A DNA stretch of 64,000 nucleotides from positions 5,146,001-5,210,000 of the forward strand of contig NZ_CP041146.1 of assembly GCF_006494775.1 (NCBI RefSeq), written 5' to 3'. The DNA comes from Nocardioides humi (lineage in GTDB: Bacteria > Actinomycetota > Actinomycetes > Propionibacteriales > Nocardioidaceae). Position 1 is the first letter of the stretch; each line of letters starts with the position of its first letter. The position numbers and the translations under genes are program-made. The notes under the pieces were generated by a model, which saw nothing but the letters and a program-made list of their open reading frames with translations, searched no databases and was not told the DNA's origin. Shown here piece by piece: positions 51,064 through 61,724 of this stretch.

Positions 51064-51077
51064 TCAGTGAACACTGA
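51064..51077 (+). promoter_or_regulatory. Palindrome TCAGTG-AA-CACTGA in the moeA / cox1 gap (shared motif site A)
   Basis: A 14-bp dyad lies 44 bp before the first gene of cox locus 1. It contains GTGAACACT (51067-51075), one base different from the motif found in the two other regulatory gaps of the cox region (60708-60716 and 61716-61724). Likely a regulator site for locus 1. Confidence 0.5.
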
Positions 51078-51120
51078 GGTCATCTTGGGGACGCTCCGTG
51101 ACGTCCGCCACTCTGGATGC

Positions 51121-52283
51121 ATGCAGGATGTCGTTGCCGCGCTGTCCGCCGACTGGCGGGCCGGCGCCCGGTCGGGCCTCGCCACCGTGGTCCGCACCCA
51201 GCGCTCCGCGCCCCGTCCCGCGGGCGCCACCATGCTGCGCCGCGCGGACGACTCCGTCGTCGGGTCGGTCTCGGGCGGCTGCGTCGAGGGCGCCGTCTAC
51301 GACCTGGCCGGCGAGGTGCTCGCCTCCGGTACGCCGGCGCTGCAGCGCTACGGCGTCAGCGACGACGACGCCTTCGCCGTGGGCCTGACCTGCGGCGGCA
51401 TCCTCGACGTCTTCGTCGAGCCGGTCTCGCCCGAGACCTTCCCCGAGCTCGGGGGCGTCCTCGAGGACCTCGAGGCCGGTCGACCGGTCGCGGTGGTCAC
51501 CGTGGTCGCCCACCCCGACCCCGAGCACCTCGGCCGGCACCTCGTGGTCCGCCCGGACACGCCGTCCGAGGGAGCCCTCGGCGACGCGCGACTGGACGAC
51601 GTGCTCACCGAGGACGCCCGCGGCCTGCTGTCCGCGGGCCTGAGCACCATCATGGAGTACGGCGCCGGTGGTGTCCGCCAGGGCGAGGGTGTCGAGGTCT
51701 TCGTCTCCTCGATGGCCCCGCGCCCCGGATGCTGGTCGTCGGCGCCATCGACTTCGCGGCGGCGGCCGCGCGTCAGGGCAAGCTGCTCGGCTACCGCGTC
51801 ACGGTGTGCGACGCCCGCGGCCTGTTCGCGACCCGGGCCCGGTTCCCCGACGTCGACGAGGTGGTCGTCGAGTGGCCGAGCCGCTATCTCGCGGCCGAGA
51901 TCGACGCGGGGAGGTTCGATGACCGAAGCGTCGTCTGCGTCCTCACCCACGACCCGAAGTTCGACGTGCCGGTGCTGCTGGAGTCCTTCCGGCTGCCGGC
52001 CGGGTGCTTCATCGGCGCGATGGGGTCCCGGCGTACCCACAACGACCGGCTGGAGCGGCTGCGCGCGGCGGGCGCGACCGAGGAGGACCTGGCCCGGCTG
52101 CACAGCCCGATCGGACTCGACCTCGGCGCCCGGACCCCGGAGGAGACCGCGGTCTCGATCGCGGCCGAGGTGATCCGGACCCAGTGGGGAGGCGGCGGGG
52201 CGGCCCTCGCCGCGACGACCGGAAGGATCCACGCCCGCAGGGGTGGTCCGGCGCGTAGCATGTCACCGATCACGAGTGCGTGA
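51121..52283 (+). pseudogene. XdhC/CoxI-family maturation protein, interrupted by an apparent one-base deletion
   Basis: From the ATG at 51121 the XdhC_CoxI domain is complete: GLATVVRTQRSAPRPAGATM, VVGSVSGGCVEGAVYDLAGE, GLTCGGILDVFVEPV. After EVFVSSMAP the frame is lost near 51715-51728. The Rossmann XdhC_C domain continues in another frame: MLVVGAIDFAAAAARQGKLL, CVLTHDPKFDVPVLLESFRL, FIGAMGSRRTHNDRLERLRA, and SPIGLDLGARTPEETAVSIA. Adding one base restores a protein of ~387 residues. XdhC proteins stabilise and sulfurate Mo cofactor. It is the first gene of cox locus 1, 15 bp before coxM1. Confidence 0.88.
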
Positions 52284-52298
52284 CGGAGGGCCGACGAC

Positions 52299-53192
52299 AT
52301 GCAGGTTCCCGCGCCGCTGGAGTACGTACGCGCGACCAGCGTGTCGGATGCCATCGGGCTGCTCGAGCGCCTCGGCGAGGAGGCGCGGATCATCGCCGGC
52401 GGCCACAGCCTGCTGCCGATGATGAAGCTGCGCCTGGCGACGCCGGAGTACCTCATCGACGTCAACGACCTGCACGACGAGCTGAGCTACATCCGCCGCA
52501 CGGGTTCCCAGCTGAGGGTCGGCGCCCTCACCCGGCACCGCGAGCTGCTGGAGTCCGAGGAGCTCGTCGAGCACTTCCCGATCTTCCGCGACGCCGAGCG
52601 GGTCATCGCCGACCCGCCGGTCCGCAACCGCGGCACGCTCGGCGGCGCCTTGTGCCAGGCGGATCCCTCCGAGGACCTCTCGTCGGTCTGTACGACGCTC
52701 AACGCCAGCTGCGTCATCCGCGGCAGCGCGGGGGAGCGTGTCGTCACGATGGAGGAGTTCTACCGCGGGCCCTACGAGACCGCCGTCGGCCCCGCGGAGA
52801 TGCTCACCGAGGTCCGCATCCCGATCCGCCGCGGCGGCAGCAACGCCTACGCGAAGGTCGACCGGCGCGCCGGCGACTGGGCGGTCACCGCCGCCGGGGC
52901 GGCGCTGTGGCTCGACGGGGGAGCCGACGGCGTGATCGCCGACGCCCGGGTCGGCCTCGCGGCGGTCGGCCCCAGCACGACAGGCATCCCGGCCATCTCC
53001 GCCGCCCTGCAGGGCCGTCCGCCCAGCGCGGAGGCGTTCGCCGAGGCGGGCCGGATAGCCGCCGAGTCGTGCTCGCCGACCACCGACGGCCGCGGCACCG
53101 AGGCCTACAAGCGCCACTTGGCCGGGGAGCTCACCCGCCGCACTCTCGCGACGGCGTACCAGCGGATCCAGGAGCGCGAGGTGCTGGGCTGA
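52299..53192 (+). CDS. coxM: CO dehydrogenase FAD-binding medium subunit, locus 1
   Basis: 297 residues; ATG with GGAGGG upstream. The FAD-binding PP-loop segments of the xanthine oxidase family are visible: IIAGGHSLLPMMKLRLATPE near residue 30 and PPVRNRGTLGGALCQADPSE near residue 105. CO dehydrogenase C-terminal FAD domain follows. It passes electrons from the Fe-S subunit to the quinone pool. The M-S-L order is that of form I CO dehydrogenases. Its stop overlaps the coxS1 start (TGATG). Confidence 0.93.
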   Translation: MQVPAPLEYVRATSVSDAIGLLERLGEEARIIAGGHSLLPMMKLRLATPEYLIDVNDLHDELSYIRRTGSQLRVGALTRHRELLESEELVEHFPIFRDAERVIADPPVRNRGTLGGALCQADPSEDLSSVCTTLNASCVIRGSAGERVVTMEEFYRGPYETAVGPAEMLTEVRIPIRRGGSNAYAKVDRRAGDWAVTAAGAALWLDGGADGVIADARVGLAAVGPSTTGIPAISAALQGRPPSAEAFAEAGRIAAESCSPTTDGRGTEAYKRHLAGELTRRTLATAYQRIQEREVLG

Positions 53193-53707
53193 TGCAGGTC
53201 AGCATGACCGTCAACGGCGAGCCGGTGGTCAGCGATGTCGAGCCGCGACTGCTCCTCGTCCACTACCTGCGCGACGTCCTCGGCCTGACCGGCACGCACT
53301 GGGGCTGCGACACCAGCAACTGCGGCGCCTGCGTCGTCCTGCTCGACGGCGAGCCGGTGAAGTCCTGCACCGTGCTGACGCCCATGGCGGGCGGCCACGA
53401 GGTGCGAACCGTGGAGAGCCTGGAGCAGGACGGCTACCTCGACCCGGTCCAGCAGGGCTTCATCGAGTGCCACGGCCTGCAGTGCGGGTTCTGCACCCCG
53501 GGCATGCTCATGTCCGCCCGCGCCCTGCTCGACGCGAACCCGAAGCCCACCGACGACGACGTCCGCGAGGCGATCTCCGGCCAGATCTGCCGGTGCACCG
53601 GCTACCGCAGCATCGTGCGGTCGGTGCAGTGGGCCGCGGAGCACCCCGATCCGGTGCCCGCACCGGAGCCGGCGTGGCCGGCCGGCACGGTGGGGGGCCT
53701 GTCATGA
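53192..53707 (+). CDS. coxS: CO dehydrogenase [2Fe-2S] small subunit, locus 1
   Basis: 171 residues. The N-terminal plant-type ferredoxin domain has the cluster Cys set in HWGCDTSNCGACVVLLDG and SCTVLTP. The C-terminal helical domain carries the second cluster in [19 protein letters not shown] and ISGQICRCTGYRSIVRSVQW. Both clusters are complete. It transfers electrons from the Mo-Cu site to CoxM. The stop overlaps the coxL1 ATG (ATGA). Confidence 0.95.
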   Translation: MQVSMTVNGEPVVSDVEPRLLLVHYLRDVLGLTGTHWGCDTSNCGACVVLLDGEPVKSCTVLTPMAGGHEVRTVESLEQDGYLDPVQQGFIECHGLQCGFCTPGMLMSARALLDANPKPTDDDVREAISGQICRCTGYRSIVRSVQWAAEHPDPVPAPEPAWPAGTVGGLS

Positions 53708-60704: not shown

Positions 60705-60707
60705 CTT

Positions 60708-60720
60708 GCGAACACTAGTG
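60708..60720. promoter_or_regulatory. Shared motif site B in the LysR-LysR gap
   Basis: GCGAACACT at 60708-60716 leads into CACTAGTG (60713-60720), an 8-bp palindrome, in the 44-bp gap between the divergent LysR genes. The same nine bases occur (other strand) before cox locus 2, and with one change before locus 1. Likely a common LysR binding site with autoregulation. Confidence 0.55.
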
Positions 60721-60748
60721 GTCTCCCTGTCGACAGGAGGATGAACCC

Positions 60749-61702
60749 GTGACTCCGACACGGCTACGGGCCTATGCGGCGGTTGCCCGGCTCGGCTCGG
60801 TGAAGGCGGCGGCCGCGGAGCTCGGCGTCTCCGAGGCGGCGGTCTCCCTCCACGTCGGCCAGCTGCGCAAGGAGCTCGGGGACCAGCTGTTCGTGCGCAC
60901 CGGCTCGGGCATCGCGTTCACCCCGGGCGGACTGCGGCTGGCCAGCCGCGCTGTCCAGCTGCTGGGCCTGCAGGACCGGACCGTGCAGGAGGTCCAGCAG
61001 GCCGGGGGAGCGCGGCGCCTGCTGCGGGTCGGGGTGTCGGGGCTCTTCGCGGAGTACGCCGCGCCGGGGCTGATCGAGGCGTTCACCCAGCGCGCCGACG
61101 ACCTCGAGGTCGAGCTCCGGACCGACCGCGCCAGCCGGTTCGGCTCGCTGCTGGTGACCCGGACCATCGACGCCGCCGTCGGGCCGCGGGTCCAGCTCGC
61201 CGCGCCCGAGCTGTCCACCAGCCACTTCCTCAACTACGAGGTGGTCGCCGTGGCCGCGCCCGGCCACCCCGCCGCCTCCGGGCAGCCGGCGCTCGCGATG
61301 CTGCGCGAGCAGAGCTGGCTGCTCGGCCCGTCCGCCAGTGAGCGCGGCGGGATCGTCACCGAGATGCTGGCGCGGCTCGCCGTGCCTGAGCAGCGGCAGC
61401 GGATCTTCCAGAGTCACGCCGCCGCCCTGGAGGAGGCCAAGCGTGGTCGCGGGATCGCCCTGACCGTCGACTTCGCGGTGTCCGCCGACGCCGACGACTC
61501 GCTCGTCGTCGTCCCCGGCCCGCTGCTGCGCGGCCGCGGGGAGTGGAGCCTGGCGACCCTGGGCGGCGAGCGGGCCTCGACCGCCGCCGACGAGCTGCGG
61601 AGGTTCGTGGTGACGCCCCGCGCGACCCAGGCGATGCTCCGCCGCCGTGGTGCGGGCGTCGGCCGGTTCCGCCCTGCAGTGCACGTCACGCTCTGGTCGT
61701 GA
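60749..61702 (+). CDS. LysR-family regulator, cox-linked, copy 2
   Basis: 317 residues from a GTG with AGGAGG upstream. Helix-turn-helix TRLRAYAAVARLGSVKAAAA, ELGVSEAAVSLHVGQLRKEL at the start; substrate domain with GLFAEYAAPGLIEAFTQRAD. It is about two-fifths to half identical by eye to the divergent copy and shares several blocks exactly (FTPGGLRLASRAV, LLGLQDRTVQEV). A duplication followed by divergence is likely. It precedes cox locus 2, and the gap of 68 bp holds motif site C. Confidence 0.9.
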   Translation: MTPTRLRAYAAVARLGSVKAAAAELGVSEAAVSLHVGQLRKELGDQLFVRTGSGIAFTPGGLRLASRAVQLLGLQDRTVQEVQQAGGARRLLRVGVSGLFAEYAAPGLIEAFTQRADDLEVELRTDRASRFGSLLVTRTIDAAVGPRVQLAAPELSTSHFLNYEVVAVAAPGHPAASGQPALAMLREQSWLLGPSASERGGIVTEMLARLAVPEQRQRIFQSHAAALEEAKRGRGIALTVDFAVSADADDSLVVVPGPLLRGRGEWSLATLGGERASTAADELRRFVVTPRATQAMLRRRGAGVGRFRPAVHVTLWS

Positions 61703-61715
61703 CCGCGGCACGATC

Positions 61716-61724
61716 AGTGTTCGC
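61716..61724 (-). promoter_or_regulatory. Shared motif site C upstream of cox locus 2
   Basis: GCGAACACT on the minus strand (AGTGTTCGC on plus) in the gap between LysR copy 2 and the first small gene of locus 2, ~47 bp before its ATG. Identical to site B. Confidence 0.55.

Follow-up and report, generated by a model that had tools for sequence, protein, structure and literature searches.

How are two carbon monoxide (CO) dehydrogenase loci controlled when a pair of LysR-family regulator genes is located between them? This question is raised by a stretch of the Nocardioides humi genome of 64,000 nucleotides (nt) (GCF_006494775.1, contig NZ_CP041146.1, positions 5,146,001 to 5,210,000; hereafter, the window), in which the divergent genes of LysRa (59751..60704, minus strand) and LysRb (60749..61702, plus strand) separate two cox loci. 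In the initial annotation, a nine-base motif found in three gaps of this region was proposed as the mark of one regulon under the LysR pair. Our analysis indicates that the sites in front of the two loci, at 51064-51077 and 61714-61727, are very probably LysR operators of the CutR type, and that their regulator would be LysRa, LysRb, or both. CutR is the LysR-type activator of the CO dehydrogenase of Mycobacterium sp. JC1, as described in a 2025 paper (PMC12609908).

The nine-base motif, GYGAACACT, was found exactly where it had been placed, i.e., at 51067-51075 and 60708-60716 on the plus strand and at 61716-61724 on the minus strand, and these are its three copies in the whole window (100 shuffles gave 0.52 copies on average, and one of the 100 reached three). 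The genome-wide count (6.22 Mb) revealed 16 copies, compared with 7 for the reversed-pattern control. Three of the 16 are clustered inside 10.7 kb, where 0.027 would be expected under a uniform Poisson model (P ~3e-6), although both the motif and the interval were selected after the data had been seen; the remaining 13 (7 within open reading frames that are coding-like by the GC content of third codon positions, and 6 not) make the motif as such unspecific. Moreover, the three sites are not equivalent, as those before the two cox loci lie within a longer conserved element (starting at 51064 and 61714) and the copy at 60708 does not. The 9-mer was rejected as the functional unit, since conservation is confined to the bases that it shares with the longer repeat. 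Judging from sequence comparison, the actual unit is this inverted repeat of 14-16 bp, TCAG-N6-CT(G/T)A, which is itself a variant of TTAAG-n6-CTTAA (T-n12-A). Before locus 1 it has the form TCAGTGAACACTGA (51064..51077, plus strand; as a 16-mer, TTCAGTGAACACTGAG), which is the palindrome already recognized in the initial annotation, and before locus 2 the form TCAGTGTTCGCTTA (61714..61727, plus strand); each matches 7 of the 10 arm bases of TTAAG-n6-CTTAA.

The latter sequence is the one bound by CutR. According to the paper mentioned above, CutR of Mycobacterium sp. JC1 binds two inverted repeats, IR1 and IR2, both TTAAG-n6-CTTAA (T-n12-A), in electrophoretic mobility shift assays; IR1 is situated upstream of cutB, at around -60, and a reporter is no longer expressed once IR1 has been deleted, IR2 is situated upstream of cutR, and Arg40 of CutR is required for IR1 binding (PMC12609908). 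The best PDB match of both LysR proteins of the window is CutR (9vvu/9vvt), the alignments covering residues 1-317 of LysRb and 1-320 of CutR (E-value 7.3e-100; next PDB match, 5.5e-13) and residues 2-317 of LysRa and 2-320 of CutR (5.7e-97; next, 8.5e-17), and in both proteins the LysR helix-turn-helix and substrate-binding domains (PF00126 and PF03466) score above cut-off. Among 85 aligned proteins (80 relatives of LysRb, LysRa and LysRb of the window, the LysRa proteins of two genomes discussed below, and CutR), Arg40 and Trp269 are each invariant (85/85). The proposed ligand residues Y164 and W269 are retained in both proteins, and S97 in LysRb. From this homology we infer that one or both proteins may bind the boxes and activate the adjacent genes in response to some sensed signal.

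Conservation of the sites was traced in 80 named loci carrying relatives of LysRb, of which two match the window in both the LysR pair and the order of the genes, namely Amycolatopsis rubida (L010) and a Nocardioides metagenome-assembled genome (L011). The locus-1 site, TCAGTGAACACTGA in the window, is TCAGTAAATGCTGA in L010, where it is likewise located 43 nt before the ATG; the contig of L011 ends short of this promoter. The locus-2 site, TCAGTGTTCGCTTA in the window, is TCAGCGTTCGCTTA in L010 and TCAGTGAAGCCTTA in L011. Upstream of the small gene that opens locus 2, a TAAG/TCAG-N6-NTTA/G element is present in L002-L004, L006, L010-L017, and L022-L024, some of these loci representing one genome twice (e.g., L003 and L013), and in single-LysR relatives with the same small gene it is TAAG-N6-CTTA or a near variant, e.g., TAAG-N6-CTTG. 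Of the gap sites in the initial annotation, those at 51064 and 61714 are thus conserved in relatives, whereas the one at 60708 is absent from both L010 and L011. The TCAG arm is common to the three genomes with the LysR pair, but it also occurs in the single-CutR genome L140, so a link between the pair and this variant lacks support. Residue 30 of the recognition helix, Ser in LysRa and Ala in LysRb (the latter also having Gln38), was considered as an explanation for the TCAG variant and rejected, because proteins of the Actinoplanes group with Ser30 have TTAAG boxes.

The enrichment of such boxes in front of cox genes was subsequently quantified in the same 80 loci; after removal of those without a match that scored at least 100 bits and began in the first 15 residues, or with less than 100 bp upstream, 64 coxM, 19 XdhC1, and 10 small-gene upstream regions were counted. 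A 16-mer with at least 8 of 10 arm bases was found upstream of coxM in 51/64 loci versus 30/2560 dinucleotide shuffles, upstream of XdhC1 in 18/19 versus 12/760, and upstream of the small gene in 7/10 versus 9/400 (at least 7 of 10: 10/10 versus 51/400), although many loci belong to close relatives (Streptomyces, Actinoplanes), so these counts are not independent events. Three of the 64 coxM (L011, L012, and L024; 36-43% identity) are matches to the locus-2 coxM and fall below 8. Among the 51 coxM boxes, a TTGAC -35 element follows the box core at exactly 8 nt in 42 and at 7 nt in 1, and is absent in 8.

The third copy of the 9-mer, GCGAACACT (60708..60716, plus strand), lies in the LysR-LysR gap and is not a CutR box: the best 16-mer between 60690 and 60760 reaches 5/10, and none touching the 9-mer exceeds 4/10. 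That the nine bases of all three gaps form the operator, with autoregulation of the LysR pair through 60708, would agree with the exactness of the three copies, all in or adjoining gene gaps, and with the position of IR2 upstream of cutR in the published system (PMC12609908). Against it speak the missing arms at 60708, the lack of this copy in the LysR-LysR gaps of L010 and L011, the 13 further copies in the genome, and the finding that only 4/78 related LysR genes have a box of at least 8/10 within 150 bp upstream, which together make it quite unlikely; autoregulation via 60708 was rejected because arms and conservation are lacking. The only feature of the gap common to the window, L010, and L011, as judged by eye, is a TAG-type hexamer 12-13 nt before the GTG of LysRa (TAGGAG in L010 and TAGGGT in L011), which is consistent with a leaderless -10. 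In the window this putative -10, TAGTGT (60712..60717, minus strand), overlaps the 9-mer, and the overlap of the 60708 copy with the LysRa promoter is most likely a coincidence.

Shared motif aside, comparative evidence gives good support to a single LysR regulon that includes both cox loci, with variants of the CutR box at the two promoters and homology to CutR in both LysR proteins; the part of the original claim that did not stand is the presence of one motif in all three gaps. The regulon is probably also larger than first stated, as two additional box-like sites were found. One, TCAGGTTTCGCTTA (48928..48941, plus strand; 7/10), had been overlooked and precedes a gene of a 176-amino acid DUF5134 protein (48985..49515, plus strand; Pfam PF17197, 61.6 bits, cut-off 29), a possible further target; no homolog of this gene was found in the other 213 of 214 genomes of the genus (E-value up to 1e-10), so this box remains a candidate. 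The other (8/10) lies past the window edge, at 71217-71230 in window numbering on the minus strand, upstream of a small gene and MoxR, and is conserved: by eye, L010, L011, and L013 each have a box-like counterpart, with the hexamer TANNNT again at a distance of 31 nt. All four boxes have the T-n12-A geometry and, with 7, 7, 7, and 8 of 10 arm bases matched, represent a degenerate variant, backed by conservation at the same promoters in relatives.

With boxes so degenerate, chance matches in GC-rich DNA have to be weighed. A genome-wide count of TMAG-N6-CTKA gave 56 places versus 32 for the reversed control, which shows that this pattern is loose and on its own unspecific. (Places matching TCAG-N3-W-N2-CTKA beyond the cox region were sorted by whether they are coding or not.) However, four TMAG-N6-CTKA places fall within the 22.3-kb cox neighborhood (48.9-71.2 kb) where 0.20 would be expected (P ~6e-5, for a region picked post hoc), three of the four box positions have a counterpart in relatives, and the box-to-ATG spacing is identical at the three boxes of the window, which makes chance an extremely improbable explanation.

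This spacing is exactly 43 nt in front of the ATGs at 51121, 61771, and 48985, because the predicted -10 lies 6 nt ahead of the ATG in each case. The putative -10 elements are CACTCT (51109..51114, plus strand), 31 nt past the box and 6 nt ahead of the ATG at 51121, where a leaderless start is predicted; GACGTT (61759..61764, plus strand), at the same distances from its box and from the ATG at 61771; and the -10-like GACGAT (48973-48978, plus strand), at the 31-nt offset from the 48928 box and before the ATG at 48985. For the outside box, the presumed -10 is TAGTCT, 31 nt away on the minus strand. The 31-nt offset was borrowed from the locus-2 promoters of relatives; in a base-frequency profile limited to boxes no more than 120 nt from the gene (38 coxM, 10 XdhC1, and 9 small-gene promoters), 9/9 small-gene promoters have A and T at offsets 32 and 36, respectively, counted from the box, and both bases are present after 4/4 boxes of this genome. 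No promoter emerged when 48500-64000 was scanned with a sigma-70 consensus. In the mechanism that we propose, the T-n12-A inverted repeat, immediately upstream of a weak -35 and about 31 bp from the -10, would be occupied by a dimer of CutR, and the bound protein would aid RNA polymerase, so that transcription would start at the ATG (43 nt from the box) or close to it. This operator would also precede the locus-2 MoxR/VWA operon (71217-71230) and perhaps the DUF5134 gene (48928-48941).

It should be stressed that 14-16 bp inverted repeats are bound by many regulator families, and binding by the LysR pair is here a prediction; a different regulator recognizing short inverted repeats might thus use these elements. 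A phylum-scale search bears on this point. The strict pattern (box followed by TTGAC) was found in 3/396 genomes of the phylum, each time just upstream of coxM, and a CutR homolog (E-value up to 1e-60) in 8/396; all three genomes with the strict pattern are among the eight bearing CutR (hypergeometric P 5e-6). Five CutR-bearing genomes, that of N. humi included, are without the strict pattern, and 6 of the 7 others have a box of 9-10/10 just upstream of coxM; in the seventh (L145), no box was seen, coxM being outside the stretch examined. As the consensus equals the published CutR site and the strict matches fall in CutR-bearing genomes in three cases out of three, we regard the involvement of a different regulator as highly unlikely.

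Several observations weigh against the assignment of these sites as CutR-type operators. The reversed control of the phylum-scale search gave 4 matches in 4 genomes, so the raw count of 3 is not above control and the weight rests on co-occurrence with CutR (none of the 4 control genomes is among the 8 bearing it) and on position. The strict pattern is not found in the genome of N. humi itself, and none of its four boxes has TTGAC at offset 8. The three boxes of the window reach only 7/10 and the outside box 8/10, and 7/10 is also attained by 51/400 shuffles of the small-gene upstream regions. A32 and T36 are found in 29% and 79% of the 38 coxM promoters and in 40% and 40% of the 10 XdhC1 promoters, so the -10 offset is clear only ahead of the small gene. 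Finally, Glu204, a ligand residue of CutR, is present in neither LysR protein, and Ser97 is replaced by Thr in LysRa.

The likeness to the CutR-IR1/IR2 system of Mycobacterium sp. JC1, as described (PMC12609908; PDB 9VVT/9VVU), comprises full-length LysR homologs with Arg40 and Trp269, a T-n12-A inverted repeat upstream of CO-dehydrogenase genes, and the presence of two CO-dehydrogenase clusters that each have a box of their own. The differences are that two divergent CutR homologs stand back to back instead of one, that the boxes have TCAG in one arm and none was found before the LysR genes, that the genes next to them encode an XdhC and a small conserved protein, so that coxM does not follow directly, and that TTGAC is missing from the usual place of the -35. 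Classical LysR operators (T-n11-A; BenM and CbnR, as cited in PMC12609908) share the inverted repeat upstream of the -35, whereas the spacing here is T-n12-A. We regard the system as one more example of the CutR-box regulon, a known mechanism in a new genome. In our literature search, which could not reach most subscription journals, no paper on the CutR box outside Mycobacterium was found, and PMC12609908 makes no mention of Streptomyces, Nocardioides, or Actinobacteria. The comparison adds many families of actinobacteria to the mycobacteria as carriers of the CutR box, yields a searchable geometry (box, 8 nt, TTGAC), and defines a regulon that can be tested in an organism having two CutR proteins as well as two CO dehydrogenases.

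The origin of these two proteins was also considered. LysRa and LysRb share 60% identity, and in the tree LysRa groups with regulators of Nocardioidaceae/Intrasporangiaceae (support 93/86) and LysRb with locus-2 regulators of Nocardioides (100/97). With the proteins in different clades, a recent tandem duplication is not favored; the identity and the separate clades make the pair look like two older lineages united. In a more far-reaching and rather doubtful reading, two CutR lineages that arose separately, the first akin to the cox regulators of Nocardioidaceae/Intrasporangiaceae and the second to the Nocardioides locus-2 regulators, would have come to stand back to back and would divide or share control of two CO-dehydrogenase isoenzymes, possibly as a heterodimer that recognizes the TCAG-N6-CTTA boxes, most of them asymmetric, in the three genomes with the pair; the DUF5134 protein would perhaps be a new member of the CO regulon.

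Locus 1 starts with an XdhC/CoxI-family gene (51121..52283, plus strand; Pfam PF02625 on its first part), followed (52299..59794, plus strand) by coxM, coxS, coxL, and genes of a second XdhC-like, a nucleotidyltransferase-like, a MoxR-like, and a VWA-like protein. Its CoxL was identified by TIGR02416 (NCBIfam, aerobic CO dehydrogenase; 1271.7 bits, cut-off 991), and the other names are tentative assignments from reading of the sequences, with homologs in the same order in relatives. Locus 2 (61771..64000, plus strand) comprises the genes of the small conserved protein, coxM, coxS, and the start of coxL, the latter and CoxG running past the window; the CoxL-2 fragment also has TIGR02416 as its best match (489 bits, under the whole-protein cut-off). 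CoxL-1 carries AYACSFR and CoxL-2, in its portion beyond the window, AYRCSFR; we take AYXCSFR to be the mark of form I. Divergent from the 51064 box is the gene of MoeA (molybdopterin molybdotransferase; 49797..51011, minus strand; Pfam MoeA_N, MoCF_biosynth, and MoeA_C), which was rejected as a target with matching geometry; the -10-like element of this gene, TAGCGT, is about 40 nt from the box and not 31 (counted by eye).

CoxL-2 (63537-65946) is 93-94% identical to its counterpart in A. rubida (L010), compared with 82% for CoxL-1 and 74% for the LysR proteins; with A. rubida belonging to a different order, this suggests horizontal transfer of the cluster. Apparent frameshifts were observed in XdhC1 (~51.67-51.76 kb), the small locus-2 gene (~62.02 kb), and CoxL-2 (~64.65 and ~65.71 kb), where the matches to the A. 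rubida proteins switch frame in XdhC1 and CoxL-2 and break off early in the small gene; given the identity of CoxL-2, an assembly error appears likelier than decay. In the locus-2 accessory operon (~70.9-71.2 kb, minus strand), MoxR is preceded by a small CGNxxxCxNMK-like protein, which, by eye, has a close counterpart encoded in the DNA of L010 and L011 and a more diverged one in that of L013. The loose search additionally returned a family of TAAGG-N4-CCTTA palindromes (among others, at genome positions 1438374, 2409094, 4561092, 4771888, 5081850, and 5351987), which we assume to resemble the boxes of iron regulators (IdeR/DtxR).

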